Virus record (IMG/VR): IMGVR_UViG_3300011113_000767
Location: 1-40,207 of that record
Length of the DNA: 40,207 nt
Strand: one strand, 5' to 3'
Source: a virus
The position numbers and the translations under genes are program-made. The notes under the pieces are model-generated. The model was not told where the DNA came from and made no database searches. It saw nothing but the letters and a program-made list of their open reading frames with translations. Shown here piece after piece: positions 6,933 through 39,758 of this stretch (position 1 is the stretch's first letter; every line of letters begins with the position of its first letter).

Positions 6933-8885
6933 TCATGTTACAAGGTCTTGCCAGATGTCAGGAGGCTCTATTTCAGGAGGAACATCTTGAATTATTGTAA
7001 TTGTATCTTGAGGTGGTGGCGGCGGTTGTTCTATATTTATTCTAAGCACTTGTGTTTTACTATTGTCTAGATTAATCATCTGGAATTGGTAAAACGGCTT
7101 CTCATCATCAGTCTGAGAATTTGGTTTTTGTATTGAGACAACATTAAACTCAGTTCCTTGTTCATCTAAGACATTAAAATACTCCGGTGTGAAATAGATC
7201 TCTAAGTTTTTTAGTTTCATTCCAGTAGTATTGATTGAATCTTTGAATGTATCCGAACGTAGATTCATATTTGGATAAGTTCTAGGACTACCTTCGTCAC
7301 AAACCATCTCAGTAATTAGGCTATTTTTAAAGAAGTCATAAGTTATTCTGTACTGAGAAGAGTAGTTAGATATCATTCCGTGTGCATCAATAGCACACAT
7401 AGCATAAATGTATGAAGTTGACTCAAAAAATTCATTATCGACAACAAAGTCTTCGTCAACATGCTTATAAACGGGTAGATCAGAGTCCTTGACTAGATAT
7501 CTTAATGATGGATCCATATTTTCAATATTGTTAGCATCAACTCTTTCACCAGTCGTATATTTTTTGTTACTTATCTGAGAAGCATCATTCGGTGAATATG
7601 GCATACCTTCAAAATTAAGAGATCCTTCAAATTCAGAAGTCAAAATAGGCGCTGTTATGTAGTCCGTAAGAGATCGATCAAAACCATACTGAGCGATTAG
7701 TTCAAATGGGTGATCAAAAGATTTTCTTCTAAAAACTTGAAATTGCCTTATGTCTGACTGCGGGTTGACCGGGAAGTCCCAAGTCATAGCAACATTTCTT
7801 TTAATATAATCAAAGTAAAATTTAATATCAGTAGGAGGAGGTGGAGGCTTAAACTCAAAGCATGAAATATTGAAAAGAGACAGGCGAGACTCAATATTTA
7901 TTGTTAAAGTGTCAGTACCAGATGGATTATTATTGCTACCTATCTTATTTGCTAAAATATCTATTTCTGCAACAACGCTAACAGCATAAACATAATTGCC
8001 ACCATAAACAACCCCAGAATCGTTAAAAGAAGTTGCTTGTGGATTATTAAGATATTTGACAAGCTCTTCTGTTAGATTTCCATCTTGTCCATATCGATAT
8101 CTTCTAATCAGAAAGCCCTTAAGCCTTGGCGTAGAATTTTCACCCACTTTTATCTCTGAAGCTTGTAGAACAATATCGTCGCTATTATTTACATTTATCT
8201 TGTAATTAGCAAATTTGTCAAGCTCTATTTTTGATATCTCAGCATTTGATAGAAGATCTTGAATTACGTACTTATGTAGTTTAACATTGAGTGAAAGAGA
8301 AGATGTTAAAGTTTTAAATAAATTTTGCTTATCAATTACATTACCTTCTGCATCAACTACATCCAAGCCTAAAGTCTGTGAAGGCAAATCTGTTAATGCA
8401 TCATAAGCATCATGAAGATGTTTTAAGTTTTGCTCAAGTCTTGATCTTTCTTGTGGGTTCAAACTTGCATTAGACTCAATAAAGTCTTTAATAATTTTTT
8501 GTTTTTTATCTAGCAAGCTGTTAAAATAAAAAAAGTCGGAAAAACCATAATAGTTTTTTAATTGCAAAGCAGCCTGCTTAACATCGGTAACTTCAGAAAA
8601 ATTTCTAGATAAGTAGTTAGAAGAAAATGAGCTATCTTCGGTTACTAATTTTTCTAGAAGCTGATTTGTTGTTTCTTTTCCTACGACATACTGATAATTC
8701 TCATATTTAGGCGGTGCCACCCAAGAAAGAGAAACATATCTTGGTGCTAAATTTGCATTAAGACCATTTGTGGCTGAAACTCTCTCATTCTTAGTATAAA
8801 AATTATAGACAAAGTCTCCCGAAAGTTGTAAAACTTCAGGAACATTAACTACGTATGAAGATTTTGATACCTTTGATGTGGTCAT
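6933..8885 (-). CDS. Large virion protein with proline hinges and fibronectin-III-like domain
   Basis: The 650-residue protein has no recognised name. A helical segment at about residues 120-170 has coiled-coil character. A proline run, PPPPPTD (near residue 348), leads into a fibronectin-III-like sandwich with VAMTWDFPVNP and FQVFRRKSFDHPFELI. A second proline run (QPPPPPQD) lies near residue 622 and is followed by an acidic tail ending in IWQDLVT. An earlier segment, VSLSWVAPPKYENYQYVV (about residues 50-70), looks like another Fn3 start. Such hinged beta-sandwich proteins are common on tails and baseplates. Only four bases separate it from the 1545-residue gene upstream, so the two are likely co-translated and may interact. 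Confidence 0.6.
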   Translation of the reverse strand: MTTSKVSKSSYVVNVPEVLQLSGDFVYNFYTKNERVSATNGLNANLAPRYVSLSWVAPPKYENYQYVVGKETTNQLLEKLVTEDSSFSSNYLSRNFSEVTDVKQAALQLKNYYGFSDFFYFNSLLDKKQKIIKDFIESNASLNPQERSRLEQNLKHLHDAYDALTDLPSQTLGLDVVDAEGNVIDKQNLFKTLTSSLSLNVKLHKYVIQDLLSNAEISKIELDKFANYKINVNNSDDIVLQASEIKVGENSTPRLKGFLIRRYRYGQDGNLTEELVKYLNNPQATSFNDSGVVYGGNYVYAVSVVAEIDILANKIGSNNNPSGTDTLTINIESRLSLFNISCFEFKPPPPPTDIKFYFDYIKRNVAMTWDFPVNPQSDIRQFQVFRRKSFDHPFELIAQYGFDRSLTDYITAPILTSEFEGSLNFEGMPYSPNDASQISNKKYTTGERVDANNIENMDPSLRYLVKDSDLPVYKHVDEDFVVDNEFFESTSYIYAMCAIDAHGMISNYSSQYRITYDFFKNSLITEMVCDEGSPRTYPNMNLRSDTFKDSINTTGMKLKNLEIYFTPEYFNVLDEQGTEFNVVSIQKPNSQTDDEKPFYQFQMINLDNSKTQVLRINIEQPPPPPQDTITIIQDVPPEIEPPDIWQDLVT

Positions 8886-8889
8886 AATT

Positions 8890-11800
8890 TTAGGTCAACC
8901 CTGGCAATTCTGATTCTAGTGCTGGTTCTATTTCTACCCAATATTCATCAACGTAAATTTCACTAGGTAAAGTAATATCTGAAGATTTTTTAACTATTCC
9001 ATTTTCATCTGCAACTAACTTACCTTCACTGATGTATTTTTCTGCCAGCTCTTGCTGTTTTGTATCATCAAACTGAGTTTGATCAATTTCAAACTCATCG
9101 GAATCAACTGCAACTGTAAAGACTCTATCAAATTTTTTAGGTAAGAATATGCGCTTTCTAATTTCGTCAGATGACATGAAAAATGTTTCATTCATAAAAT
9201 ATCTCTTTATGGTCTCTTCAGACTGCTTAACAACTCTAAGTCTTTCATTAGCTGGAACAGACTGTAAAAAGTCATCTGGTAGATTTGACTCATTAAATTG
9301 TAGGTTAGTTGTCGACAGGTAGTTATTAAACTGCGATTCCATATTCTTCATTGTTGCGTCTAGGTTGACATAATGATAATAGTAAGATTCATCTAGCCTC
9401 GCCCGAGTAAACATATTTACATATTCTTCTAGTAAAAAGCTCTCAACGTGATTATTGTATAAGCTTTTAAAATCAATTGCTGTATTCTTTCCTACGACAG
9501 CAGAATATTCTGAAACAGCATAATTTCTTGCAAAGAGACCATTTTCAGTAATTTGCTGCTTTATAATAGTTTGATCTAAAAAGCTATTAGGAATATGTAC
9601 TTTTGTTGGAATAGACGCAATCAAGTCGTCAAGACTTCCATTAATATCAACTTCTTTATAGAGAGCAAGATCTCTTGTTGGAAATCGGTACATGTCAAAA
9701 ACAAACGTCTTTGGTTTATAGTAGATACCGGGTGTGTTCAAAACGTCGTTCTTATAAACTTTAATCTTAATTAAATTCTTAAGAACTGAACTCGAATAAT
9801 TTAGACTTGTTTGCAAAGCAGGTGTTTTATTTAAATTTCTCACCATTCTTGGCGGTATTCCAATAGACAAAATTCTTCTATTGTTAGTATTGATACTGGT
9901 GAATTTGTCGTTCTTTATGAAGAATTGTCTTACCAGTGGATTATAAGCAAACTGGTCTGTAGCATTGAGAGAAATAAATTCAGAGATTCCAATCACAGCT
10001 GGCTTATCGGAAATGGTGAACTCCTGTGTCTGAAACAGAGATCCTTTCTCGCTGTAAAATCCTGGTTTTAAATTGACTACAGCACTATAGAACGAATTTA
10101 GATCTAGATCTGTCCTTCTTTTAATTTCATCTCCTATATTTCTTGACAGCAAAAGTTGTTCTTGTGCAAAGCCGCTAGAAACAAGAAATCTTTTTAACGA
10201 GCTACGTGAAGCATCGTCCGGCAATGAAGATACTTCTGAGTTTGCAGCTGAATTTAATTCATTATAGTATTTTTTCACATCTGCAATTGGTGACTTTAAG
10301 AAGTTAATAAAGTTTGAAACTCGATTTTCAAGCACAGAAAGGTAAAGTGTAAGTCTAGAAAAATGGTCTGAGCAAACTTTTTGCTGTTCAATAAAAGAAT
10401 TAATTACAGGATCGATTGTGTCTCTGTAGTTTAGTTTAGTATTCCAAAAACTATAAGATCCTTTAGTTTCGTTAGGACTGTCGGTTTCATTTATATATTT
10501 AAAGCTTTGATCAATTCCAAGATTATAACCAAATTCAGTTACGTAACTAACGGTATTGATATCATCCTTTGAGTCATAAGTAGAAAAATCAAGAACACCT
10601 ATTAGAGACTCAGGAGTAACTCTTCTTATAGCATCAACTATTAATAAAAAATAATTCCAAAGCATCACAGAGGCATCAATATCACCATAACACGTAGTGA
10701 CACGTCCTGCAAGAAGATTAGAATTATCTGCCCCCGCGGTTCTAAATGGAGATCTATCCTTAACAGCTAAGTGAAATTTTGATAAGAGCTCGGCAATTTT
10801 ATCGAGAAGAAAATTTTTCTTTCCGAGGCCATTTGTACCATTTAAATCGCTGTAAACGACTAAATTGTGAAAATAGCTTTCTCCTTTTAGCAAAAGAGAG
10901 TTTGCAGCTGCATTCTTAAGAAGCGGGGTCTGAGAAGTAAAACTTACCTTGGGCGTTTTTCTAGTCTCTAAGTCCCAAAATGTTGCAGAAGACGCTTCAG
11001 CTTTATCTTTAAAAACTTTAAAGATTTCAGGATTTGAAAAAATTATGGCATCTATTGCCATGGCTGGGCTAATAGCGTTACCAGTTGTGTCAATTAGAGT
11101 TTGAAAAAATAGACCTCTATTTGAATGAGAAAACTCTTTCTTTAACTCAGGAGATGCATTTGAAAAATTAGGTGTAACAAATTGAATTTCTCCGAGCCCA
11201 AGATTGGCAACTTCTATCTTAAATTTTGGTTTAAATTTTTCAAATCCATTACTTGAAATCGCACCATGATTAGTTTTGCCGTCTTCTCCCATACCAATAT
11301 GATACATTCTTCTTAAAACAATTGAAAAGATAGCTTTTAGTAAATTCTCACCCACAGACTTTTTCTTGACATCAAGGTATGATGAGTCGTAAATTAAAGA
11401 CCATGCCCTAGAAATAAGTGATGCAAGAACTCTGCTTACAAAACCATTTTTGCCGATTGCAGCTACGCTAGTATTGTAAATTTCTTTAGTTTTTTGATCT
11501 TCAGGAATCTCTGAAAAGTTTTTAGATGATTGTGCTACTATTTTTATCTTTGACTCATAAAATTTAACTAGATCGGATGTGGCAATTTCTCTATAGGCTC
11601 TGGTAATAGATTCTCTATACTCGCTTAATTGCTGCAGCTGAAATAAAGTAGAATCTTCTTCTTCTATTTTAGCTCTGTGCAAGTACTTAATTGCGTTAAT
11701 AGACTTTCTTGCATCTTGAATTTTTGTTAGTAGCTGACTAGCTTTAGCAGTATCAGGAAGAATGTCTCCCTGAGAATTTGCTTGTCCTGTTAATGCTGAG

Positions 11801-13527
11801 TCAATATAGTAAAGTGCGCCTGGGGTTAATGTTTCTCCTGCACCAAAATCTAAGTTTGTCTCTTCTATTGTAAGAATTCGATAGACATTTTCTGTCGATG
11901 GATCACTTAGCTGACTACTATCGGCATTGATAACTTGTTTAGTAAATCTTGCTAGTGAAGGAGCTGAAGTTGCGTTATTTGTCAATAAAGCATCTTCATT
12001 CGTAAAATCAGTTACTTCTCTAGTTAGTTCTCCAATAAGAACATTCCATATGTCATAATTAGCTGCAGTTGAATCTTGAGTTATTGTAGGAAGATAACCA
12101 CCAAAATTTTTAGAAAGATAATTTCTTATTGGTGTATTTCTACAAGATGAAGAGAATAGTATTTCTTTAAAAAGAAGAAAAGATAATAGACCAAAATATT
12201 TTGTGAAGTCAATTCCAGCGTGTGGTACCAATAGGTCGCCGCCTACACTTGACTTAAATGAATTGACTGTTAAATTTCTTAAAATATTGTCAATACCATT
12301 ATTAAACTGCGGAATACCAGAAAATGATTTTTTAATGCCTATGTTACCCGAGCCATTTGTAACTAAAATATCGCTTAATCCGCCAATATGACGAGCATTG
12401 ACTAAACCGATAGCTGCAATATCTGCTAGTGAGACGTCTGTCTGAAAGGTTTTTTGTCTATTTAAGACGAAATGTTTGTCAAAATAATTTTGAATTATTT
12501 TATTTGCACCACCAGGGAGAACTAATTGTTCAGGAAAAGAGTCTGTTTGATTTAAAATTTTAAAAGATAGACTATTGGTTCTTATGCTTTCATTAAGCGA
12601 TAGTTTAGCTTCCGGCAAAAGTATTGATGTTAGATCTGTTGCAAGAGAATGTGTATAAATTTCTTTCTTTATGATTGAAAGAAGGCTATTAAAAGACGTA
12701 GTGTTGATAAAAGGTGAAGATAAAACACATTTTTCTTGTGTAAAAATATTAGAGAAACCTTTAGGATAGTCTTGAGACTCATCAAGAACTTTTTGAGGAT
12801 TTAATACGCTGATAACATCTACAAGATTTTGCAAGATCAATGAAGATCCTTTAGCTTGTGTAACAGATAATTCAGAAAATTTATTTTTACTATCTAAAAT
12901 TTTTCCTGCTGTTTTTGCTGAATGAGATTTATTTTTTAAGAATGTATTTTGTGCCGTCGACAAGATGAGATCTTCACATTCTTTTTTAAGAATTAAAGAG
13001 AAGTCTCTGTCATATGAAGTATCGACTCCAATACCTTCGAAGTCAGATCCGCCAAAGTCTAAAAGTTTTAAAGTAAAGTTTGTATCACTAACTGGCAATA
13101 CTTCTATTGAGCTTATGATCAATGGCTCGTCGGAGGGTATAGCAGTAAGCGCCGTATAAATTCTAGACTTATTTGTTGATTTTGTGGCCCAAGGGTTATA
13201 TTGACTAGAATTTTTATTTATAAGCTTATCATTTGGATCAAGAATTTTTGATGTCGTAGAGTTTGTTAATAAGTCTGAATTTACTAATGCAGAAGTTATT
13301 TGTGAATAATTAATCGACTCAGAATTAACTACGGGCGGATTTGAACCCTGTCCAGACTTAAACTCAAATTGAATGCCGCTTAACTGATCTGAGACTTTGG
13401 TATCAATACTACTTGCAACTTGAGAAGCAACCGTGGTGTTAAATGAAAATATTTGAGAAAAGCCTCCATCGCCAGAATTATAGCCTCTAGTCGTAACTGC
13501 TGATTTTACTGTCGCTCTCTTTCCCAT
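8890..13527 (-). CDS. Giant virion protein of unknown family (1545 residues)
   Basis: This is the largest gene in the window and I recognise no domain in it. It lacks a signal peptide and clear membrane segments. It is rich in Asn, Ser and Lys. The region of about residues 600-720 contains long charged helices (DSTLFQLQQLSEYRES, REIATSDLVKFYESK), and the C-terminal 100 residues are acidic and Glu/Asp-rich (DSDEFEIDQTQFDD, EIEPALESELPGLT). The position between two Fn3-bearing structural genes, with gaps of four and five bases, makes a tail, baseplate or internal head protein likely. A tape-measure role is less likely, because long uninterrupted helical heptads do not dominate. A packaged enzyme cannot be excluded. 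Confidence 0.5.
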   Translation of the reverse strand: MGKRATVKSAVTTRGYNSGDGGFSQIFSFNTTVASQVASSIDTKVSDQLSGIQFEFKSGQGSNPPVVNSESINYSQITSALVNSDLLTNSTTSKILDPNDKLINKNSSQYNPWATKSTNKSRIYTALTAIPSDEPLIISSIEVLPVSDTNFTLKLLDFGGSDFEGIGVDTSYDRDFSLILKKECEDLILSTAQNTFLKNKSHSAKTAGKILDSKNKFSELSVTQAKGSSLILQNLVDVISVLNPQKVLDESQDYPKGFSNIFTQEKCVLSSPFINTTSFNSLLSIIKKEIYTHSLATDLTSILLPEAKLSLNESIRTNSLSFKILNQTDSFPEQLVLPGGANKIIQNYFDKHFVLNRQKTFQTDVSLADIAAIGLVNARHIGGLSDILVTNGSGNIGIKKSFSGIPQFNNGIDNILRNLTVNSFKSSVGGDLLVPHAGIDFTKYFGLLSFLLFKEILFSSSCRNTPIRNYLSKNFGGYLPTITQDSTAANYDIWNVLIGELTREVTDFTNEDALLTNNATSAPSLARFTKQVINADSSQLSDPSTENVYRILTIEETNLDFGAGETLTPGALYYIDSALTGQANSQGDILPDTAKASQLLTKIQDARKSINAIKYLHRAKIEEEDSTLFQLQQLSEYRESITRAYREIATSDLVKFYESKIKIVAQSSKNFSEIPEDQKTKEIYNTSVAAIGKNGFVSRVLASLISRAWSLIYDSSYLDVKKKSVGENLLKAIFSIVLRRMYHIGMGEDGKTNHGAISSNGFEKFKPKFKIEVANLGLGEIQFVTPNFSNASPELKKEFSHSNRGLFFQTLIDTTGNAISPAMAIDAIIFSNPEIFKVFKDKAEASSATFWDLETRKTPKVSFTSQTPLLKNAAANSLLLKGESYFHNLVVYSDLNGTNGLGKKNFLLDKIAELLSKFHLAVKDRSPFRTAGADNSNLLAGRVTTCYGDIDASVMLWNYFLLIVDAIRRVTPESLIGVLDFSTYDSKDDINTVSYVTEFGYNLGIDQSFKYINETDSPNETKGSYSFWNTKLNYRDTIDPVINSFIEQQKVCSDHFSRLTLYLSVLENRVSNFINFLKSPIADVKKYYNELNSAANSEVSSLPDDASRSSLKRFLVSSGFAQEQLLLSRNIGDEIKRRTDLDLNSFYSAVVNLKPGFYSEKGSLFQTQEFTISDKPAVIGISEFISLNATDQFAYNPLVRQFFIKNDKFTSINTNNRRILSIGIPPRMVRNLNKTPALQTSLNYSSSVLKNLIKIKVYKNDVLNTPGIYYKPKTFVFDMYRFPTRDLALYKEVDINGSLDDLIASIPTKVHIPNSFLDQTIIKQQITENGLFARNYAVSEYSAVVGKNTAIDFKSLYNNHVESFLLEEYVNMFTRARLDESYYYHYVNLDATMKNMESQFNNYLSTTNLQFNESNLPDDFLQSVPANERLRVVKQSEETIKRYFMNETFFMSSDEIRKRIFLPKKFDRVFTVAVDSDEFEIDQTQFDDTKQQELAEKYISEGKLVADENGIVKKSSDITLPSEIYVDEYWVEIEPALESELPGLT

Positions 13528-13532
13528 ATTCT

Positions 13533-16028
13533 CTAAAATTTTCCTTCAAGATTTTGAGTTATTATCAAAGGATTGCTCATATGCGTCTGTAGAATAACAT
13601 AGTCATTGCTGACAGGAGTTACTTCATAAAACAGCGTACCTAAATCTTCTTCATTATCTAAAGCATGATATAAATAAGGATCAGAAGTAATACCAAGAAT
13701 GCTTTTTTTGCCATTGACAACTTTGCACACAATAAAGCTATCAAATTGATCAATTAAATTTTGCATCAAATTCCATGAAATTTTTATGTTTGTCAATGAA
13801 GCTCTTGTAGCAGCGACATTTGAAATTTGAAGATCTCTTCTATTGATCGAGAAATTAATGTCATTTACCATAAAAGTTCCAATAAAATCTGACATGAAAG
13901 TTTCTTCATGAGACTCATTAAAAGAATTTTCATTCTCTTCAAGCAATGTTCCTGTATTTAAGACTCGTGGATGCATCCATTTAGAAGGTCTATAGAACCA
14001 CGTTTTATTTTCTATATTTGTATTACCAACTACTAAAAAGTCTTTAGTAATAGTAATTGGGTCTCTTTTAAAAGACTCAATCATGTACTTGTAGCTTCTA
14101 CCAGTTATTGGGTCTGAAATTGACATTCTTTTTCTTGTCTCGGGGCTGTCTTCAAATGTTCCATCAGTTACTAGGCTGAAAGTTTCTCTCTTATTTGTCA
14201 CTGTGTCTATTCTAGTGATTTTATGATAAGCAGTTATAGGATAATCGTTTGGATTAGAGGAAACTTCTTGAGTGGGGGTCACATTTATTCTTAATTTATC
14301 TAGTTGCTGTTTTAATAAGTTTGCAGATGTATCTAATTTTTGTATATCAGTCTGGATTGAAAACAGAACAGTATCAGGAGTTATAGACACGTTTGATACG
14401 CTGACAGAAAAAGAAGCTGGATCGTTAATAAATCTGACGTTTATCAACTTTGGTTCTGAAGATTTTATTACATTTTCGTATTGATCAATTAATTCGACGT
14501 AATACTCGTAAAAATTATTGACTAAGATATTTTCATCATTTAAAACTTGTTTTGATGAAGATGAATCAGACAAATATTCTATAGAAAAAATACCAAATGG
14601 TGCGTCTGAAGAAAGAGTACAGTTTCTCTTGTAGATTTTTATCTTTCTAATTTGGTTTGAAATATTTTCGTTATCATATGAGATTTCTAACTCAACACTG
14701 TTTGATGAAATTTGTCGAACATTAAAGAACGTAAAATTATCTGCTTCAAACAATGTTTTTTCACCTTTGACTGATTTAACAACACAGTCAGAAAAAACAT
14801 AAGACTCACCAAAATAAGTGACAGGTTTAACTCTGTAGCAAAGCGAATAAGAGTCATTAGCTTGCTGAGAAACATAAGAACTATTCTTTTCTAAGCTTGT
14901 AAGAAATGAAAATTTACTATTGTCTTGACTCAATAAATTTTTGACGTAAAGATTATAACTTAATATTTTCTTTTCATCTTCTTGTTGGCAAGAAAAACTT
15001 AATGTATTTTCATTAACTAAAGCATTTAATTGTCTTGATGTACAGTCGATATTGATAGATTTAATAGACTTATAGTAGACATCAAAAAATCTAGTAAAGT
15101 CAAGATTTATTAGTCTAGTTAGACCAGGATTGTCAGGAGAATCTTTGGAGAAAAGATCAAATTTAAGAGTCAAGCTTTTATTAGTGTATGATCTTCTTAA
15201 TTTAAACTCAGTAGATAAATCTAGCTTATTAAGAAATTTTCTAGATCTTTGCTTTGTATAGTAATTTAAATTGCTTAAATTTCTTCTGTCAAGCTTATTT
15301 GCGCTATGTATTAGGTAGTCAATTATCAGCTTTTCATTTAAATTTTGTGTATCATCTACAGCAGTCTGTGTTGATTTACTAATAAGCTTGCTAATAGTAG
15401 TCTTTGAATTGACTATATCTTGAAAAATTTTAAGATCTGGAGAATTTGAAACACGTTCAGTTAATAGACTTTTATCTTGAGAAATATTAATAAAGTCTGG
15501 GAGAATAATGTCAGTAAAATCAACAGCTGTTTTTAAAGCAGAGACTACTTTTTGATCTATATAAACTGTCTGTGATGTTATTGTTGAATTATCACCTATG
15601 GTATTTTTTACAGACTGAACTATGGTTCTGTACTTATTATATTTAATTTGAGACTCTAGCGATATGTTTTCATTAGATAAAAATCTTTTATTGAAGCTTA
15701 AGTCTTGGGACAATTTTGACTCATCTGTGCCAATTTGTGCAACTGTATTCTTTCCAAGAATATTCTTTTTAATAAAAGAATTATTATCTTCAAAATTATT
15801 ATTTTTAAAAGGTGTGGTCAAAGAATTTCTTTGAGCATCAGTTAAAATTGATATATTGACTTTTTTATATAAAAGCGGATTATATGACTTATCATTGAGT
15901 CTAACAGAAAAATAGACTTTTAAAGTAACATACTGTGGATCAACATCAATTACTTCGCCAACTAAGCTTGAATCAATTATTAGTGCTGACTCAGGTATTC
16001 TATTTGCTAAATCTAATTTAATTGGCAT
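13533..16028 (-). CDS. Large virion protein with fibronectin-III-like repeats
   Basis: The protein has about 831 residues if it starts at ATG 16028 (MPIKLDLANRIPESAL). That start is preferred over ATG 16049, because AGGAGAGG sits at a suitable distance upstream and it lies one base after the stop of the preceding gene. The N-terminal part has GEVIDVDPQYVTLKVYFSV, a small beta domain. From about residue 330 onward there are several segments of Fn3 type, for example LSYNLYVKNL, YSLCYRVKPVTYFGES, IRKIKIYKRN, FYEYYVELIDQYEN and the C-terminal LFYEVTPVSNDY. The repeated Fn3-like build resembles the 650-residue protein at 6933-8885, from which it is separated only by the 1545-residue gene. A long tail or baseplate appendage is the likeliest role. 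Confidence 0.57.
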   Translation of the reverse strand: MPIKLDLANRIPESALIIDSSLVGEVIDVDPQYVTLKVYFSVRLNDKSYNPLLYKKVNISILTDAQRNSLTTPFKNNNFEDNNSFIKKNILGKNTVAQIGTDESKLSQDLSFNKRFLSNENISLESQIKYNKYRTIVQSVKNTIGDNSTITSQTVYIDQKVVSALKTAVDFTDIILPDFINISQDKSLLTERVSNSPDLKIFQDIVNSKTTISKLISKSTQTAVDDTQNLNEKLIIDYLIHSANKLDRRNLSNLNYYTKQRSRKFLNKLDLSTEFKLRRSYTNKSLTLKFDLFSKDSPDNPGLTRLINLDFTRFFDVYYKSIKSINIDCTSRQLNALVNENTLSFSCQQEDEKKILSYNLYVKNLLSQDNSKFSFLTSLEKNSSYVSQQANDSYSLCYRVKPVTYFGESYVFSDCVVKSVKGEKTLFEADNFTFFNVRQISSNSVELEISYDNENISNQIRKIKIYKRNCTLSSDAPFGIFSIEYLSDSSSSKQVLNDENILVNNFYEYYVELIDQYENVIKSSEPKLINVRFINDPASFSVSVSNVSITPDTVLFSIQTDIQKLDTSANLLKQQLDKLRINVTPTQEVSSNPNDYPITAYHKITRIDTVTNKRETFSLVTDGTFEDSPETRKRMSISDPITGRSYKYMIESFKRDPITITKDFLVVGNTNIENKTWFYRPSKWMHPRVLNTGTLLEENENSFNESHEETFMSDFIGTFMVNDINFSINRRDLQISNVAATRASLTNIKISWNLMQNLIDQFDSFIVCKVVNGKKSILGITSDPYLYHALDNEEDLGTLFYEVTPVSNDYVILQTHMSNPLIITQNLEGKF

Positions 16029-16029
16029 A

Positions 16030-17559
16030 CTAATCTTCCTCTCCTGCATCTTGTGAGAAAATTAGAGTAAAGATGTTTAAAAAACAGGCAGTGCCTCTGT
16101 CGTCTAAAAATACTTTGCCAACAAAATAAACTCTTTTTTGCAAAATAGATCCCGGTTCTTGTTGAATAAATCCATGGTCAATAATGTCAAGTTTTTGGAC
16201 AGAGCCTTTTGAAACTTCAAATAGCTGACAAAGAAGGTTATTGCTTCTAGTAGTTTTTTCAAAATTAATTTTTCTTTGAATAGCAAATCCGCCAGACTGT
16301 TTTATTTCATCGATTAGTTGTGAATAACTTAATGGCTTAAGATTTGAGCCAAGAGGTTTAAAGTTAGCTAGCTGATATTGAGTTGTTAATGTTGAGTCTG
16401 TTTTATTTGTTAAAACTGCGTCACTAGTCTTGACTATTGGAGGAAGATACTTGAAATTAAGGGTATTAGAGAGTTTATCATCAGAAAATAAAGAATCGAC
16501 TGAATTAAGGGTCGGTTTTTGCTCAATCAGCTGCTTGTTCGTGAGTTGATTAATATCAAAACTAATTTCTTCAGGAAAAATTTGAAAGCTTTCTTCTAAG
16601 AAGATAGGATCGATTGTTGATATCATTCCTAGCTCTGAAAAATTGTCAAATGATGATGTAAGAATTCCCTGTATTTGTGATGCAAAATCTGCATTAGGAA
16701 GCTCTACAACATCTTTTCTTCCACCAAGAAAAGCATCTTCAATTACAAACGGGTGTATTTCTGTGTCTGTATTAATCACATAATTTCCCGACCCTGTTAG
16801 CAAGCTTATAACAACTTTGTCGTGACTTCCACTTAGATCAGTTATATAAATGTTATTGTCTCTATCAACTGGCTCAACGTGGGGCCCAGGAGATCTTCCA
16901 CCTGGATAAGTTGGCTGAACAATAGATGCAGATAAAATTGTTGCCTGTACTAGAGTAGTCAAATCTCTTGCGTTAAGACCGCCCTTGACTCCGATATAAT
17001 AAGAGCTACTTGTTATAGTTGCACTCTTGTAGGATGATGAAACAGTTCCAACAAATTTACTCGGATCTAGTATAAAATTTGCTTTGCTTCCAAAGCTATC
17101 AATAACAGAAAAGCCTACACCCATTCCGTCAGAAACAAATTTACCTAATACAGAACCTGTTATTGCTGGGTCTATTCCTGGCTTTCTAACCTGTACTCGC
17201 GGACCAAAATTTAATTGATAGGCAGTAGCTTTACCTTGAGAAAAGAAAATTTCTAATGGTTTTGGCAACAGTGGAATTGAGTCAAGTTTATCAAAAGTAA
17301 TTCTATCATCTCTAAAAGAGATAATATTGCCGTCATCATTGGCTTCAAATATGATCTGATCTTGCGGTAAGTTGCATGCTTCTAAGTAAATTTTACCAAC
17401 TGGGTCTATGTGCCCATCTGTATCATCAGCCTTGTAACCAACTTCTCTATCTGAAAAAGTTGCGAATGATACTCTAAATGTACCTTCCGCCATCTGCCTT
17501 CTGCCCTCAGAAGTCAAAATGACATCCATAATTCTAGACTTACTATCGAGTATTCCCAT
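16030..17559 (-). CDS. Virion structural protein with MGxLD N-terminal module (509 residues)
   Basis: The N-terminus MGILDSKSRIMDVILTSEGR matches the start of the 249-residue protein at 6104-6853 in the order MGxLD, DxxLTxxGRxQ and DxExxY. The rest has no domain that I recognise. It is mostly short strands and loops, with a glycine-rich middle (YPGGRSPGP near residue 220) and a Gln/Leu-rich stretch around 330-360. It is the first gene of the minus-strand virion block, next to the PhoH gene, and its stop is followed after one base by the next start. A TATAATTTTA element lies upstream of the start and may drive the block. A structural role is inferred from position and the shared module. Confidence 0.6.
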   Translation of the reverse strand: MGILDSKSRIMDVILTSEGRRQMAEGTFRVSFATFSDREVGYKADDTDGHIDPVGKIYLEACNLPQDQIIFEANDDGNIISFRDDRITFDKLDSIPLLPKPLEIFFSQGKATAYQLNFGPRVQVRKPGIDPAITGSVLGKFVSDGMGVGFSVIDSFGSKANFILDPSKFVGTVSSSYKSATITSSSYYIGVKGGLNARDLTTLVQATILSASIVQPTYPGGRSPGPHVEPVDRDNNIYITDLSGSHDKVVISLLTGSGNYVINTDTEIHPFVIEDAFLGGRKDVVELPNADFASQIQGILTSSFDNFSELGMISTIDPIFLEESFQIFPEEISFDINQLTNKQLIEQKPTLNSVDSLFSDDKLSNTLNFKYLPPIVKTSDAVLTNKTDSTLTTQYQLANFKPLGSNLKPLSYSQLIDEIKQSGGFAIQRKINFEKTTRSNNLLCQLFEVSKGSVQKLDIIDHGFIQQEPGSILQKRVYFVGKVFLDDRGTACFLNIFTLIFSQDAGEED

Positions 17560-27342: not shown

Positions 27343-28013
27343 TATCTGTAGTCATACCGGTCAGAAATGCTGCCAGTACTGTGCAGGAATCAATACGATC
27401 AGTATTAACTCAAGAAATACAAGATCTAGAAATTCTCTGTATTGTCAATGGAACAACTGATAACACAGAAGAAGTTATTCAAGATATAAAAGATGATAGG
27501 ATCAAAATTCTCCGTTCTGAACCAGGAATAGTTCCTGCACTCAATATGGGTCTAAGAAATTGCAAAGGTGACTTTATTGCCCGTCAAGATGCAGACGATG
27601 TTTGGCTTTCAAATAAACTAAAAAAGCAATTAGAATTCTTTGACAAGAATTCTGATGTTGACATTGTAGGTACTCAATTAAATGTTGTCGATGCTAATAA
27701 CAAGTTTATAAGAACGACCAATTATCCGATTGAGCATAGTCACATAATCTCTAGTCTTCTTTCCGGAGAAAATTCAATTGGGCACCCTAGCGTGGTCTTT
27801 AAGAAAAAGATTTTAGATAAATGTGCTGGATACTTCGATCTCTTTCCATTTGCCGAAGATTTGGACCTATGGTCTAGATCAATACCGTGGTATAAGTTTG
27901 CTAATCTAGACGAGCCGCTGGTCAGATATAAACACGTCCCAAATCCAAATTATAACCCTAGCGTACCAAAAATTGTGTCAGCGTGGTATAGAATGGTATA
28001 TGGAGTCAAATGA
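27339..28013 (+). CDS. Family 2 glycosyltransferase
   Basis: The 224-residue protein is a standard GT-A fold enzyme. It begins ISVVIPVRNAASTVQESIRS, has IVNGTTDNTEEVI for nucleotide binding and RQDADDVW (Asp84-Ala-Asp86-Asp87) as the metal-binding motif. FPFAEDLDLWSR, about two thirds along, is the usual acidic acceptor-site region of GT2 enzymes. It would transfer a sugar from a nucleotide donor to a growing glycan; the donor cannot be told. It starts at GTG 27339, in a GTGA overlap with the preceding stop, and its own stop overlaps the next ATG. Confidence 0.9.
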   Translation: MISVVIPVRNAASTVQESIRSVLTQEIQDLEILCIVNGTTDNTEEVIQDIKDDRIKILRSEPGIVPALNMGLRNCKGDFIARQDADDVWLSNKLKKQLEFFDKNSDVDIVGTQLNVVDANNKFIRTTNYPIEHSHIISSLLSGENSIGHPSVVFKKKILDKCAGYFDLFPFAEDLDLWSRSIPWYKFANLDEPLVRYKHVPNPNYNPSVPKIVSAWYRMVYGVK

Positions 28014-28771
28014 TAACTTACTCACAGCTTGGTAAAAATGGTAGACTTGGAAACCAGATGTTTCAGTACGCGACTTTATTTTCTGTAGGATTCACAAGAG
28101 GATATCAGATTGGAATTCCAAAAGATCAGAAGATAACACAAGTTTTTAACATTGATAGTGCAACTAAGCTAGACGAAGTAAAAAGCAAGTCTGTTTATAA
28201 AGAGCAAAATTTTGCTTTTGACCCAAGCGTTTTTTTGATCCCTGATGACACCGATCTATACGGTTATTTTCAGTCAGGTAATTATTTTAATCATTGCGAA
28301 GAAGCTCTTAGAAAAGAATTTCAATTTTCTCAAGAAGTTACTCAAAAAGTAAATGACTTACTATCAAAATATGGTAATACTCCTCTATGTGCTGTTCATG
28401 TTCGCAGAGGAGATTATGCAAACCTTTCGCACTATCATACCAATTTAGGTTCTGACTATTATGTCCCAGCTTGCACGTTAGTCCACCAGAATGTGCCAAA
28501 TATTAAATTTTTAGTCTTTTCTGACGATCCTGAATGGTGTAGAAATGCATTTAAAGATGAAAAATTTGACGTCATTGACACAGGTGACGAAGCACTTGAT
28601 CTCTGCATCATGTCAAGATGTCCTGTACACGTAATTGCAAATTCATCTTTTAGCTGGTGGGGCGCATGGTTGAGTAAGTCAACTGCAGTTGTTGCACCTA
28701 AGCAGTGGTTTGGACCAGCGGGACCTAAAGAGTGGAATTCTGTATACCAGCAGGGTTGGGTCTTAGTATGA
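28010..28771 (+). CDS. GT11 alpha-1,2-fucosyltransferase-like enzyme
   Basis: The 253-residue protein has all the landmarks of GT11: GRLGNQMFQYA at residues 11-21, YGYFQSGNYF (84-93), the GDP-fucose-binding HVRRGDY at residues 130-136 and SSFSWWGAWLS near residue 220. GT11 enzymes add fucose alpha-1,2 to galactose, in bacterial O-antigens among others. The length is typical of bacterial members. The following gene is a GT6, whose family uses the fucosylated product as acceptor in ABO-type synthesis. No genes for making GDP-fucose (gmd, fcl) are in the window, so the donor would come from the host or from outside the window. Its ATG shares the ATGA overlap with the preceding stop. Confidence 0.9.
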   Translation: MITYSQLGKNGRLGNQMFQYATLFSVGFTRGYQIGIPKDQKITQVFNIDSATKLDEVKSKSVYKEQNFAFDPSVFLIPDDTDLYGYFQSGNYFNHCEEALRKEFQFSQEVTQKVNDLLSKYGNTPLCAVHVRRGDYANLSHYHTNLGSDYYVPACTLVHQNVPNIKFLVFSDDPEWCRNAFKDEKFDVIDTGDEALDLCIMSRCPVHVIANSSFSWWGAWLSKSTAVVAPKQWFGPAGPKEWNSVYQQGWVLV

Positions 28772-35336: not shown

Positions 35337-35980
35337 CTATTACATTAAAAGACAAGATTTTAGAAAGACTAAACTTTTACTCCGATAGATTTTATCAAGA
35401 AGGATCTTGTGGAGCTAGACCGAATGGATGTCATTCTATAGAATGTGCTAATAGAAAAAGGCATTATACTGACAAAAATCTATACCACTCTTATGGTGAA
35501 TTTTACGCAAGCCTAATAACAAATTTACTTGGAAGTCAAAAAGAAGAAGACTTTTCAATAATGGAGCTAGGAACATATTTTGGCGGATCAGTTGCTGCGT
35601 GGTGTGAATCATTACCACAAGCTTTTATTTGCGGTGTTGACCAAAATTTAGATCGATTATGGATAGATCCAAGCAACTATCCTAACTTAAAACTAATTTC
35701 AGGCAATCATGAAAGTCTACTAACATATGAGCCACTAGGAAGTAGAAAATTTGATCTTATAATCGACGATGGCTCACACATAGCCGATAATCAAATTAGT
35801 AACTTTTCTATACTCAAGAGCAAACTAAAACCAGGCGGCGTCTATGTTATTGAAGACATTTATCCTGAAAACGTCTATCCTGAAAATTTTTTAAATCAAT
35901 TTGAGAGAGTTGATTTCTCTAAAGACTCTGGTAGGGGAGACGATACGCTACTTGTTTACAAACACGATGAGGGAAAATGA
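35333..35980 (+). CDS. Class I methyltransferase, sugar/antibiotic-modifying type
   Basis: The 215-residue protein has SIMELGTYFGGSVAAW (75-90) as SAM-binding motif I, ICGVDQNLDR (99-108) as motif II and the metal-linked segment LIIDDGSHIADN (142-153), followed by KPGGVYVIEDI (166-176). This set, with IDDGSH, is that of MycF-like sugar O-methyltransferases and related capsule methyltransferases, which use a metal ion. It probably methylates a sugar hydroxyl of the glycan. The protein begins at GTG 35333, with a GGAGG ribosome-binding site seven bases upstream. Four bases overlap with each neighbour. Confidence 0.85.
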   Translation: MTITLKDKILERLNFYSDRFYQEGSCGARPNGCHSIECANRKRHYTDKNLYHSYGEFYASLITNLLGSQKEEDFSIMELGTYFGGSVAAWCESLPQAFICGVDQNLDRLWIDPSNYPNLKLISGNHESLLTYEPLGSRKFDLIIDDGSHIADNQISNFSILKSKLKPGGVYVIEDIYPENVYPENFLNQFERVDFSKDSGRGDDTLLVYKHDEGK

Positions 35981-36504
35981 ATAAAAAAGCATTAATATTG
36001 ACATATGAAAGTTATCAAGACCATGAGGTCATCTATCCATACTATCGACTAACAGAAGATGAGTATGATGTTGAAATTATGTCTAACAAACAAGGAAGAT
36101 TTTATGGCATATTAGGAACGTACATGAACGGAACTCATCTGCTAAGTGATCTGTCTGATGCAAGCAAAAGAGAAAACTTTTTAAAGTATGACTTACTTGT
36201 AATTCCTGGTGGAGTCAAGGCTCTAGAGTATCTTAGACAAGAAAAAGATGTCCTAGACTTTATTAATGAGTGGGATAAGAGAAAAAAAGTCATAGCTTGT
36301 ATTTGTCATGGTGCTCAACTTTTAATTTCTTCAAAAGTTGTTGAGGGAAGACAGATCTCTGGGTACTATAGTATTAAGGATGATATTAACAATGCAGGAG
36401 CAATATACGTTGATGCGCCCTTTGTTGTCTCTAACAATATTGTTACATCTCCGCATTATAAACACATGGGACCTTGGATGAAAAAAGCGATCAGCATGGT
36501 GTGA
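35977..36504 (+). CDS. DJ-1/PfpI-family protein
   Basis: The 175-residue protein is a clear PfpI-type member of the DJ-1 superfamily: HEVIYPYYRLTEDEYDVEI (16-34) with the conserved Glu17, LLVIPGG (73-79), nucleophile elbow CICHGAQLL with Cys110-His111, and YSIKDDINNAGAIYVD near the end. The family includes deglycase/glyoxalase-like enzymes and proteases of debated activity. Key residues are intact. Its presence in a sugar cluster is odd; it might handle reactive dicarbonyls or act on a sugar intermediate. It overlaps the previous gene by ATGA. Confidence 0.88.
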   Translation: MNKKALILTYESYQDHEVIYPYYRLTEDEYDVEIMSNKQGRFYGILGTYMNGTHLLSDLSDASKRENFLKYDLLVIPGGVKALEYLRQEKDVLDFINEWDKRKKVIACICHGAQLLISSKVVEGRQISGYYSIKDDINNAGAIYVDAPFVVSNNIVTSPHYKHMGPWMKKAISMV

Positions 36505-36505
36505 G

Positions 36506-37180
36506 ATGAGTTATAAGACGAATATTGTTAAGAAACCATGGGGCTATGAATATCTAGTATATGAAAATGAAAATGTAGCTTTATGGTTTCTTAGTATTTT
36601 AAGGGACCAAAAAACTTCAATGCACTGTCACCCAAATAAAACTACGGGCCTGATGGTAATTGATGGAGATGCAGAAGTTTCTTTCTTATCTAATAAGTTA
36701 AGTCTATCTACAAAAGAAAAGACAATGATAAGAAAAGGACTTTTTCATTCTACACATGCAATTGGTTCTAATTTATGCATATTCGAAATTGAAACACCTG
36801 TCAATAAGCACGATCTTGTTAGACTTGAAGACAAATATGGAAGAACAGGTCAGCCTTATGAAGATGAGTCAAATGAATTACCAAAAGCAAGTGAATGTAT
36901 TTGGATCGATGAACCAGTCAAAGGATTGAGTAATTTCTATAATCTTGGTGGAAAAAAAATAGCTGTTCATCACATTGATAGCATGCAACATATGCAAAGA
37001 CTATTAGAACAAACTGATTCACACATTATGTTTTTAAGAGGAGGCCTCTTAACAGAGTATGACATTAATGTTGCAGGTCCCGGCGATATTGTAACCAAAG
37101 ATGTCTTAAAAAAATTGTTAAAAGTTTTTTCTAATATGTCTAATAACACGATTGTTTTAACTCATGAAGGTAACTTTTAA
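36506..37180 (+). CDS. Cupin protein, mannose-6-phosphate-isomerase-like
   Basis: The 224-residue protein opens with IVKKPWGYEYLVYEN, the KPWGxE start of type II phosphomannose isomerases and related cupins. The metal-binding cupin motif is SMHCHPNKTTG (His40, His42) with GDAEV, then GLFHSTHA (His81, His84). PVNKHDLVRLEDKYGR (98-113) is also typical of that group. The second half does not show a second cupin motif and is less conserved. It could isomerise a sugar phosphate feeding GDP-mannose or GDP-fucose, which would fit the GT11, but the substrate is not shown. It begins one base after the preceding stop. Confidence 0.75.
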   Translation: MSYKTNIVKKPWGYEYLVYENENVALWFLSILRDQKTSMHCHPNKTTGLMVIDGDAEVSFLSNKLSLSTKEKTMIRKGLFHSTHAIGSNLCIFEIETPVNKHDLVRLEDKYGRTGQPYEDESNELPKASECIWIDEPVKGLSNFYNLGGKKIAVHHIDSMQHMQRLLEQTDSHIMFLRGGLLTEYDINVAGPGDIVTKDVLKKLLKVFSNMSNNTIVLTHEGNF

Positions 37181-37182
37181 TT

Positions 37183-37569
37183 ATGAAAGATTTCCCGCCA
37201 GGATTTGAAAATGAGTCAAACAATATCGCAATTGACTTTGATGGTGTAATACACGATTTTAGTAAAGGTTTTCATGATGGAACATGCTACGGAGAACCCT
37301 TGCCCGGTGCAATTGAGTCAGTCAAGAAACTATCTAAAAAGTTCAATATTGTTATTTTTACTGCAAAAGCTAAACCAAACAGACCTCTTATTCAAGGTAA
37401 AACAGGAAAAGAGCATGTAGAAGATTGGCTTAAAAAGTATGAAATATTTTCTCTAGTAAAAGAAGTAACATCTGAAAAACCAAGAGCTTTTCTGTACATT
37501 GATGATAAAGGTTATAGATTTAGCAACTGGAATGATGCCTTGCTTTTTATAGAAAAGAATTATGAGTGA
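37183..37569 (+). CDS. Small HAD-family hydrolase
   Basis: The 128-residue protein has the HAD catalytic pair Asp18/Asp20 in IAIDFDGVIHDF, the second motif in VIFTAKAK (Thr60), Lys99 in SEKPRAF and Asp107-Asp108 in YIDDKGYRF. It is capless and similar in build to the HAD protein at 31272, though the sequences differ apart from these motifs. A phosphosugar or nucleotide phosphatase is likely. It begins three bases after the cupin stop, and its end overlaps the E1 alpha start by eight bases, tying it to the thiamine-diphosphate pair. Confidence 0.8.
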   Translation: MKDFPPGFENESNNIAIDFDGVIHDFSKGFHDGTCYGEPLPGAIESVKKLSKKFNIVIFTAKAKPNRPLIQGKTGKEHVEDWLKKYEIFSLVKEVTSEKPRAFLYIDDKGYRFSNWNDALLFIEKNYE

Positions 37570-38395
37570 ATACAGACTAAATGTATTTAAGCGAGCTTCG
37601 CTTTGCAGAAATTTTGAGAAAAAAGTTTTTGATCTTATAAAACTTAATACTTTTAAATTTCCAATTTATCTGTCTGCAGGCCAAGAATATATTGCAGCTT
37701 CAATTGCTGAATGTTTATCTTTAGCAAAGATTAATCCTAATATCTTTATTCAACACAGAGGACATTCAACTTATCTGTCTTTTGAAGCGCCTATAGAAGA
37801 ATTAATTGATGAACTTTTAGGAAGAAAAACAGGTTGTTCAAATGGCATGGGTGGATCTGCTTCAATTCAGTCTAGGCCTAAAAATATTTATGGTCACGAT
37901 GGCCTGATGGGAAGTCAAGTCCCAATCTCAGTTGGGCACTGTTATTCAACAAAAAAACCTACTATAGTTTTTATGGGTGATGCCTCTGCAGAAGAAGACT
38001 ATGTTTTAGGCGCACTTGGCTGGGCAGCTACTAAAAAACTACCAATATTATTTGTTGTTGAGGATAACAATCTTTCAATTCTCACAGAGAAAAAAGTTAG
38101 AAGAAGCTGGGAGATGGATGATGTTGCTAAATCGTTTGGAATGAGTGCGTTTAATATAAATGATGATCCGCACGAGATTCAAGAAGCTTTGACATCTGTG
38201 TTTGCTAGCCCGTTGCTTATAAATGTCAATACTCATAGAAAATATTGGCACGCTGGTGCAGGTATTGATGACGAAACTATCTATGACCGCTATGAAAATG
38301 AAATGAAGATATTAGGCATCAAGGCACAAGAAATACATGAAAGAACACATCTACATGTAGAGGAATTATGGCAAAGAACGTTAGAGAAACAATAA
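37562..38395 (+). CDS. Thiamine-diphosphate enzyme, E1 alpha-type subunit
   Basis: The 277-residue protein is the alpha half of a pyruvate-dehydrogenase-E1/transketolase-like enzyme. HRGHSTYL (65-72) and NGMGGSASIQ (94-103) are the usual E1 alpha segments, and the thiamine-diphosphate-binding motif is GDASAEED (139-146), ending in EDNN (167-170). The length is slightly short for E1 alpha (about 320-360 residues). It needs the beta subunit encoded next, whose gene starts 28 bases before this one ends. Such pairs normally decarboxylate 2-oxo acids and pass on an acyl or ketol unit. No lipoyl E2 or E3 gene is present, so transfer to a sugar or another carbonyl is more likely than a dehydrogenase complex. 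Confidence 0.88.
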   Translation: MSEYRLNVFKRASLCRNFEKKVFDLIKLNTFKFPIYLSAGQEYIAASIAECLSLAKINPNIFIQHRGHSTYLSFEAPIEELIDELLGRKTGCSNGMGGSASIQSRPKNIYGHDGLMGSQVPISVGHCYSTKKPTIVFMGDASAEEDYVLGALGWAATKKLPILFVVEDNNLSILTEKKVRRSWEMDDVAKSFGMSAFNINDDPHEIQEALTSVFASPLLINVNTHRKYWHAGAGIDDETIYDRYENEMKILGIKAQEIHERTHLHVEELWQRTLEKQ

Positions 38396-39279
38396 AGTCT
38401 CTTACTAAGAAACATCTAGAAAGTGGAAAAAGATGTTTTGGACAGTGTCTAACAGCTGTTGGATGGGTTGGCGGAACACTACCAGAGCTCTATGAGAAAG
38501 ACGGAATGGTTGAACTTTCGATGGCTGACGTCGCCGGAGGTTCTATTGTTACAGGAATTGCACTTGCAGGTGAAAGACCAATTTACGTTGTTAGATATCA
38601 GGGATTTCAGTGGTATAATGCACCTTCAATTGTTAACTACGCTGCCAAGTCAAAAGAAATTTGGGGAATACCCTGCCCCATCTTTGTCAGAAGTATTGCA
38701 ATGGAGGGCGGCGTAGGTCCAGTTGCAGGTTCATCACATCATTCGTTATATGATAGAATGCCAGGTTTAAAAATTGCTGCACCCATGACCCCAATTGAGT
38801 ATGAAAAAGTTTATGACTCTTTCATGAAAGATGACGTACCATATTACGTCTCAGAGCATAGAAAAAGTTATGATAATTGTGAAGAACTTGAAGATGAAAT
38901 ACATGAAAATTCCGACATAGTATTATTTCCAATATCAATTACAAGATTTTCAGCAAAAGATGCAAAACTAAAATTAGAAGAGCTTGGATACACTGTAAGT
39001 ATCGTTCATCAATTATGGATAAAACCTTTTACTGGGAAGCAAAAATCGGTAGATGCATTAAAAAACTCAAAAGCAGGTTTAGTAATTGATGATGACTACG
39101 CTCAAGGAGTTGCCACAAATATCGCTCATCAGCTTATGTTATCATCTAAAAAGACAGTCGATGTTTTAGGATTAGAAGAAAGAACAGCAGGTTTTCATCC
39201 AAGCGTTGACTTATTTCCACCAAGCTCTGAAAAAATAATCAATAAATGTCTAGAGTTACTATCGACTAAATTAACATGA
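38368..39279 (+). CDS. Thiamine-diphosphate enzyme, E1 beta-type subunit
   Basis: The 303-residue protein matches the transketolase pyrimidine-binding and C-terminal domains of E1 beta. FGQCLTAVGWVGGT and VELSMADVAGGSIVTGIALA form the N-terminal part, GVGPVAGSSHHSLYDRMPGL is the His-rich loop of E1 beta, IAAPMTPIEYEKVYDSFM follows, and the C-terminal domain has VSIVHQLWIKPF. The catalytic Glu of E1 beta, which activates the cofactor, would lie near MADVAGG, where the usual Glu is not obvious; activity may therefore be altered. The ATG lies inside the alpha gene, giving a 28-base overlap. The pair is translated together. Confidence 0.85.
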   Translation: MAKNVRETIKSLTKKHLESGKRCFGQCLTAVGWVGGTLPELYEKDGMVELSMADVAGGSIVTGIALAGERPIYVVRYQGFQWYNAPSIVNYAAKSKEIWGIPCPIFVRSIAMEGGVGPVAGSSHHSLYDRMPGLKIAAPMTPIEYEKVYDSFMKDDVPYYVSEHRKSYDNCEELEDEIHENSDIVLFPISITRFSAKDAKLKLEELGYTVSIVHQLWIKPFTGKQKSVDALKNSKAGLVIDDDYAQGVATNIAHQLMLSSKKTVDVLGLEERTAGFHPSVDLFPPSSEKIINKCLELLSTKLT

Positions 39280-39758
39280 TATTTTCTGATGTCAAAGAGT
39301 ATGAAGCAAGTTATTACAGTGACTACAGAGGAGACTTGTGGACTCTGTGGAAAGAGGATGAAACATATCCGTCTATTAAATTTAATCATGACAAAGTTTC
39401 AACATCAAGAAAGAATGTGCTAAGAGGCATTCATGGCGATTTTAAGTCAACTAAATTGGTAACGTGCCTGTTTGGCGAAATTTATTTTGTAGTTGTCGAC
39501 AATCGCCCAGACTCACCCACATTTAAAAAGTGGGACTGGGTTATGTTGAGTGACAAAAATAAGAAGTCTATATTACTTCCGCCTGGTTTCGGTAATGGAT
39601 TCCTTGTAATGAGTAAACAGTCTGTGTTTCATTATAAGTGGTCTTACGAGGGCACATATCCCGATGTTGATGAACAATTTACTATTAAATGGAATGATTC
39701 TACTATCGGAATTGACTGGCCGATTTTAAATCCAATTTTACAAAAAAGAGACAAGTGA
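39276..39758 (+). CDS. RmlC-like dTDP-sugar 3,5-epimerase or isomerase
   Basis: The 160-residue protein has the RmlC cupin core: STSRKNVLRGIHGD with His53, TKLVTCLFGEIYFVVVD, then NRPDSPTFKKW and LLPPGFGNGFLV, and ends in a TIGIDWPI tail typical of RmlC. The usual partner residue after RGxH is changed (RGIHGD rather than RGLHFQ), and the length is short against RmlC (about 180 residues). It likely epimerises or isomerises a 4-keto-6-deoxy nucleotide sugar. The lack of rmlA, rmlB and rmlD in the window means that the substrate is not necessarily dTDP-rhamnose precursor. It starts in an ATGA overlap with the E1 beta stop. Confidence 0.82.
   Translation: MIFSDVKEYEASYYSDYRGDLWTLWKEDETYPSIKFNHDKVSTSRKNVLRGIHGDFKSTKLVTCLFGEIYFVVVDNRPDSPTFKKWDWVMLSDKNKKSILLPPGFGNGFLVMSKQSVFHYKWSYEGTYPDVDEQFTIKWNDSTIGIDWPILNPILQKRDK

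Follow-up and report, generated by a model that had tools for sequence, protein, structure and literature searches.

A split thiamine-diphosphate enzyme in a sugar-gene module shared by phages and bacteria: a candidate branching system on a probable GDP-heptose line

What might a virus do with both subunits of an E1-type thiamine-diphosphate (ThDP) enzyme placed among sugar genes? The question is raised by the window analyzed here, a virus-record fragment of 40,207 nucleotides from a marine phage. Its minus strand carries primase, RuvC, PhoH, helicase and head-maturation-protease-like genes, together with three large genes that have no PHROG match. On the plus strand, a sugar-gene island, which includes a GT11-family (fucosyltransferase-type) glycosyltransferase, runs from position 25070 to the right end. 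The last seven genes encode, in order, a DJ-1/PfpI-family protein, a cupin, a small HAD-like protein, E1 alpha, E1 beta, an RmlC-like protein and a DegT-family protein (Table 1); no two neighbours lie more than 4 bases apart, and the largest overlap is 28 bases.

Table 1. Positions of the cassette genes and of other features discussed, numbered along the window.
Feature	Position	Strand	Length	Basis or remark
Large gene	6933-8885	-	650 aa	
Large gene	8890-13527	-	1545 aa	
Large gene	13533-16049	-	838 aa	
GT11-family glycosyltransferase	28010-28771	+		
DJ-1/PfpI-family protein	35977..36504	+	175 aa	Pfam DJ-1_PfpI, E 6.6e-35
PMI/ManC-type cupin	36506..37180	+	224 aa	Pfam MannoseP_isomer, E 1.9e-6
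Small HAD-like protein, predicted phosphatase	37183..37569	+	128 aa	DFDGV motif as read
E1-type alpha subunit, ThDP pyrophosphate domain	37562..38395	+	277 aa	Pfam E1_dh, E 5.7e-20
E1-type beta subunit, pyrimidine domain	38368..39279	+	303 aa	Transket_pyr, E 5.7e-11
RmlC-like epimerase	39276..39758	+	160 aa	E 6.4e-39
DegT family, contig ends	39763..40206	+	first 148 aa only	Pfam DegT, E 7.6e-27

The E1 alpha and E1 beta genes are genuine and not chance reading frames. A check of open reading frames and Pfam matches returned exactly the coordinates and the 28-base overlap that the first-pass annotation had reported, with the RmlC-like gene next, and silent differences between the window and its relatives far outnumber amino-acid changes. 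The exact overlap recurs at 40 of 69 distinct viral and 23 of 46 distinct bacterial loci (distinct loci are counted as distinct E1 beta proteins). E1 alpha carries the ThDP motif G139-D140-X28-N169, which fits the general GDX25-30N rule (PMC2831816). The Pfam hits, this motif and a fold match to 1w85_B and 3exe_B identify the pair as E1 alpha and beta; the E1 beta model (pLDDT 88.9) has pyruvate dehydrogenase (PDH) E1 beta as its nearest fold. In family alignments, GDX28N and the active-site neighbours are invariant in both subunits.

In a sequence alignment that is ungapped over the 16 residues to a shared RP motif, Asp54 of E1 beta appears to fall on Glu59 of the human protein, which is the catalytic glutamate conserved in PYR domains (PMC2831816). 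Asp occupies this column in 160 of 160 family rows (about 115 of them distinct), and Glu is found there in the human protein and in five canonical E1 pairs from the same bacterial clusters. The catalytic glutamate of a 2-oxoacid dehydrogenase E1 thus seems to be replaced by Asp, a change that could mean different chemistry. A limited literature search found no published report of a family-wide Asp at this position. Second, canonical E1 pairs that keep Glu lie in bacterial clusters that also hold the Asp-type (D-type) pair, for example at L150:918-1886 and 3088-4143, at L142:13947-16245, in L160 and at the left ends of L116 and L119.

We find that the genes around the pair form a conserved module. 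The first-pass annotation was right to place the pair in a sugar cluster, and it did not mention the most constant partners, which are the DJ-1/PfpI protein and the cupin. Within five genes of E1 beta, DJ-1 is present at 66/69 viral and 36/46 bacterial distinct loci, the cupin at 63/69 and 37/46, and DegT at 57/69 and 15/46. Glu17 and Cys110 of the DJ-1/PfpI protein are invariant in 22 relatives, and His40, His42 and His81 of the cupin are invariant in its alignment. The cupin model (pLDDT 92.3) has a cupin fold, and its first domain matches phosphomannose isomerase and KdgF. The small HAD-like protein has no Pfam or NCBIfam match; its slot holds HAD or HADc22 at 49 of 69 viral loci, and other relatives carry a different HAD there. 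Fusions with E1 alpha tie the cupin and HAD to the pair: a cupin-E1 alpha fusion is found in three Omnitrophota records, and a viral protein (L079:1147-2538) joins an MDP-1-like HAD domain to E1 alpha. Often adjoining the module, at 14 of the first 36 related loci, is a B12-binding radical SAM protein (cluster c13, for example L025:10628-12148) that may act as a C-methyltransferase on the same sugar.

The module is common to phages and bacteria and is not phage-only. Among viral contigs, E1 alpha as the query gave 35 relatives and the E1 beta alignment gave 80 that were kept, many on contigs shared with the E1 alpha set; the order DJ-1, cupin, (HAD), E1 alpha, E1 beta repeats in most of them. 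A scan of species genomes found 48 loci that are at most 68% identical. Counted as distinct E1 beta proteins, the conserved module has 69 viral and 46 bacterial relatives, and its bacterial carriers include SAR11, SAR116, Thiothrix single cells, Burkholderiales, Omnitrophota, Verrucomicrobia and candidate-phylum bacteria (CPR). In a quick tree of E1 beta, viral and bacterial sequences are intermixed within a single clade that has full support and is set off from canonical E1 beta by a long branch; therefore, the module has moved between phages and bacteria. Among 50,697 phage records the closest E1 relatives are 22-26% identical, and plasmids yielded just distant E1 pairs, none above 29% identity. 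Several of the phage-record matches, unannotated and only 1.5-4 kb long, bear the names of Staphylococcus, Listeria and Enterococcus phages and may be host DNA, as may very short unannotated “phage” records with E1 subunit genes (OR850426.1, OR847274.1, PQ520092.1). Literature searches of open-licence papers returned nothing on the module in phages or SAR11.

The DegT-family gene had been labelled DegT/RfbH in the first-pass annotation, a label that our comparison replaces with ColD-type. The diagnostic position lies outside the truncated window copy, and the assignment is made through the cassette DegT genes, including the full-length one of a near-identical sister phage (L002:10202-11383). 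The nearest match of that protein is ColD, the GDP-4-keto-6-deoxymannose 3-dehydratase (2gms, E 6.5e-59), which it resembles in length, in having His (at 188) in place of the catalytic Lys and in having no Fe-S motif; ColD also outscores 3bcx. Of 136 aligned DegT rows (ColD included), 132 have His where the catalytic Lys would stand, and the four exceptions are other DegT proteins. A [2Fe-2S] cysteine pattern, which we take to be that of RfbH-type enzymes, occurs in 4 of 135 DegT genes, all on the opposite strand and none of them a cassette gene. An RfbH/E1-type 3-dehydratase is therefore ruled out by the missing Fe-S motif and the best score to ColD. ColD itself needs no iron-sulfur cluster to produce a 3-deoxy-4-keto GDP-sugar (PMC8987622); the cassette enzyme differs from it in that its substrate is probably a heptose. 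Two loci (L031:15643-16821 and L034:13688-14998, both minus) have, near the cassette and on the opposite strand, an additional DegT gene that does contain the Fe-S cysteines and probably encodes a true RfbH-type dehydratase.

What sugar does the cassette act on? The best solved structure for the RmlC-like protein is the Campylobacter GDP-D-glycero-4-keto-D-lyxo-heptose 3,5-epimerase (8db5, E 5.1e-49), and the dTDP-4-dehydrorhamnose epimerase matches at 2e-25 only. We therefore dropped a dTDP-rhamnose RmlC identity, and the protein is probably a GDP-4-keto-heptose 3,5- or 5-epimerase. The window ends before any 4,6-dehydratase gene. In sister phages such a gene is found on 18 distinct viral contigs; the encoded proteins are at least 71% identical to each other and nearest to GDP-D-glycero-D-manno-heptose 4,6-dehydratase (7us5, E 1.9e-115). 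The sister phages also carry HldE-like kinase and nucleotidyltransferase genes and, after DegT, short-chain dehydrogenases/reductases (SDRs) like fucose synthase and GDP-mannose epimerase. From these matches, the sugar line of the cassette is probably GDP-heptose. Taken with the ColD-type dehydratase, the predicted activities correspond to the published GDP-3,6-dideoxy-heptose pathway of Campylobacter jejuni (PMC10440746).

Two further observations bear on the role of the pair. First, the absence of E2 noted in the first-pass annotation is borne out: a 2-oxoacid dehydrogenase E2 (PF00198) is found in 0 of 33 related viral records, all of them fragments, using a search that recovered E2 in 10 of 14 reference genomes as a control. 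Second, the pair co-occurs with the dehydratase in bacteria. D-type E1 beta is present in 12 of 197 SAR11-family genomes, and a close ColD-like gene is found in 10 of the 12 genomes with the pair versus 14 of the 185 without it (Fisher p 5.8e-9, which is only a guide because these genomes are related and partly incomplete). Of 22 bacterial genomes, picked mostly because the dehydratase was not near the module, 17 contain a gene matching DegT, and in 16 of the 17 it has the His motif. The fourteen SAR11-family genomes with a close ColD-like dehydratase and no D-type E1 beta include G093, G116 and G103.

We propose that the cassette serves specifically to build a rare surface sugar and that its E1 pair attaches an acyl unit to GDP-3,6-dideoxy-4-keto-heptose at the C4 ketone, and we give this reading a probability of about 0.5. 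Branching at the C4 ketone is the best reading because E2 is absent, because the pair runs with a PLP 3-dehydratase and a 3,5-epimerase, and because of the co-occurrence in SAR11. The acceptor, donor, product and branching reaction that we infer are as follows. The GDP-heptose 4,6-dehydratase seen in sister phages would make GDP-4-keto-6-deoxy-heptose, the ColD-type DegT protein would take off the C3 hydroxyl, and the RmlC-like protein would epimerise C5 or C3/C5. The E1 alpha/beta pair would then form an acyl anion on ThDP and add it to the C4 ketone, replacing the usual C4 reduction and giving a C4-branched 3,6-dideoxyheptose. SDRs would reduce the branched product, and glycosyltransferases would place the sugar on the host envelope or the virion; DJ-1, the cupin and HAD may serve in donor supply or product processing. 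The first-pass annotation had already suggested sugar branching by such a pair, an outline that remains sound as the best reading; it is amended by the GDP-heptose line, the ColD-type dehydratase, the sharing with bacteria and the fact that pairs of this kind are already known.

Against branching stand DJ-1 and the cupin, the most constant partners, which are not needed for pyruvate-based branching, and the Asp at the Glu column, with the different chemistry that it may bring. It is possible, if doubtful, that the pair forms a sub-pathway of its own with the cupin, HAD and DJ-1, carrying out a transketolase- or ketol-type transfer that runs parallel to the GDP-heptose intermediate instead of acting on it, with an unusual free or phosphorylated sugar or acid as the product. 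The constancy of DJ-1 and the cupin also where DegT is distant, the fusions of cupin or HAD to E1 alpha and the resemblance of the cupin to phosphomannose isomerase and KdgF all point this way. Canonical E1 genes directly flank the ColD-like gene in L150, and a canonical pair lies beside it in L160, so the D-type pair there may act otherwise. However, such a sub-pathway fits poorly with the strong co-occurrence with the ColD-like dehydratase in SAR11 and with a DegT gene that is directly adjacent in most phages. The company of DJ-1, cupin and HAD and the canonical pairs of L150 and L160 favour a special donor or a separate reaction of the D-type pair. A bolder version of the branching proposal, which we offer tentatively, is that the pair belongs to an undescribed E1-fold ThDP family that uses the invariant Asp as its activating acid. 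Together with the cupin, DJ-1 and HAD phosphatase, it might add a non-pyruvate acyl unit to GDP-3,6-dideoxy-4-keto-heptose to give a branched nine- or ten-carbon surface sugar, with the genes exchanged between phages and marine bacteria.

A second alternative is that the cassette yields plain 3,6-dideoxyheptose, as in Campylobacter jejuni HS:5, and that the E1 pair belongs to a different pathway carried by the same island. The GDP-3,6-dideoxy-heptose pathway of C. jejuni HS:5/HS:11 uses a 4,6-dehydratase, a ColD-family PLP C3-dehydratase (62-67% identical to ColD-type enzymes), an RmlC-like epimerase and an SDR reductase, but as described it has no ThDP enzyme, DJ-1 or cupin (PMC10440746). The plain sugar is conceivable because C4-reductase-like SDRs are also present: the 4,6-dehydratase, ColD-type dehydratase, epimerase and fucose-synthase-like SDRs all occur in sister phages. 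Nonetheless, the E1 pair sits inside the run, overlapping its neighbours, and tracks the dehydratase in bacteria, and we regard this alternative as unlikely.

It is more improbable still that the Glu to Asp change has cost the pair its ordinary ThDP catalysis and left it as a scaffold or binding partner. That all relatives carry Asp at the catalytic Glu column would agree with such a loss, but the Asp is itself invariant, as are the motif and active-site neighbours in both subunits, silent changes dominate, and glyoxylate carboligases are working enzymes with Val in place of this Glu family-wide (PMC3534367). Least probable of all is an ordinary pyruvate or acetoin dehydrogenase E1 supplying acetyl units to the infected cell: the best general profile matches of the pair are PDH E1 alpha and beta, but the score of 109 bits falls far below the curated PDH cut-off of 393.85, and the absence of E2, the sugar genes around the pair throughout, the long branch that sets its clade apart from canonical E1 beta and the apparent Asp at the Glu column put such a role out of consideration.

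How does C4 branching by the pair compare with known systems? For avilamycin, paulomycin, aldgamycin and kibdelomycin, sugar branching has been either proposed or demonstrated to be the work of E1-type pairs (PMC4425429, PMC12247030), and pairs that attach a two-carbon branch are already known. The alphaKADH2 pairs AviB1/AviB2 (avilamycin), Pau11/Pau12 (paulomycin), EvdU5/EvdS3 (everninomicin) and KbDH-alpha/beta (kibdelomycin) resemble the cassette pair, by layout and description, in having separate E1 alpha and beta genes in a sugar cluster with no E2, the layout that we also find here, and they are proposed to transfer an acyl unit to a keto sugar (PMC4425429, PMC10338323, PMC12247030). They differ in belonging to Gram-positive antibiotic clusters, none of them reported with a DJ-1, cupin or ColD-type gene, and in acting on TDP- or UDP-hexoses or pentoses or on an already attached sugar. 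YerE of the yersiniose pathway also depends on ThDP and puts a branch on a 3,6-dideoxy-4-keto sugar at C4, but it is a single-chain flavoprotein of the acetolactate-synthase type with an unrelated subunit layout, and the two-gene E1-type layout and fold exclude a YerE-type enzyme here. Marine phage sugar islands are known from T4-like phages with nucleotide-sugar genes (Synechococcus phages ACG-2014f and S-SCSM1). Unlike the cassette, these islands have no E1 pair; the ACG-2014f DegT, which lies beside two epimerases, is 37% identical to the sister-phage (L002) protein. Because E1-type sugar branching is already known from AviB1/AviB2, the interpretation in the first-pass annotation is less new than it seemed. 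What is new, as far as we found, is the conserved phage and bacterial module, its probable GDP-heptose context and the apparently invariant Asp.

The ThDP-activating glutamate is described as conserved, and the named exception in the literature we consulted is glyoxylate carboligase, with Val; a whole clade with Asp would be a natural test of how important that glutamate is. SAR11-type cells and their phages would be expected from the module to carry a branched heptose. Surface sugars there likely govern phage recognition, and the module names the genes to express for finding this sugar.
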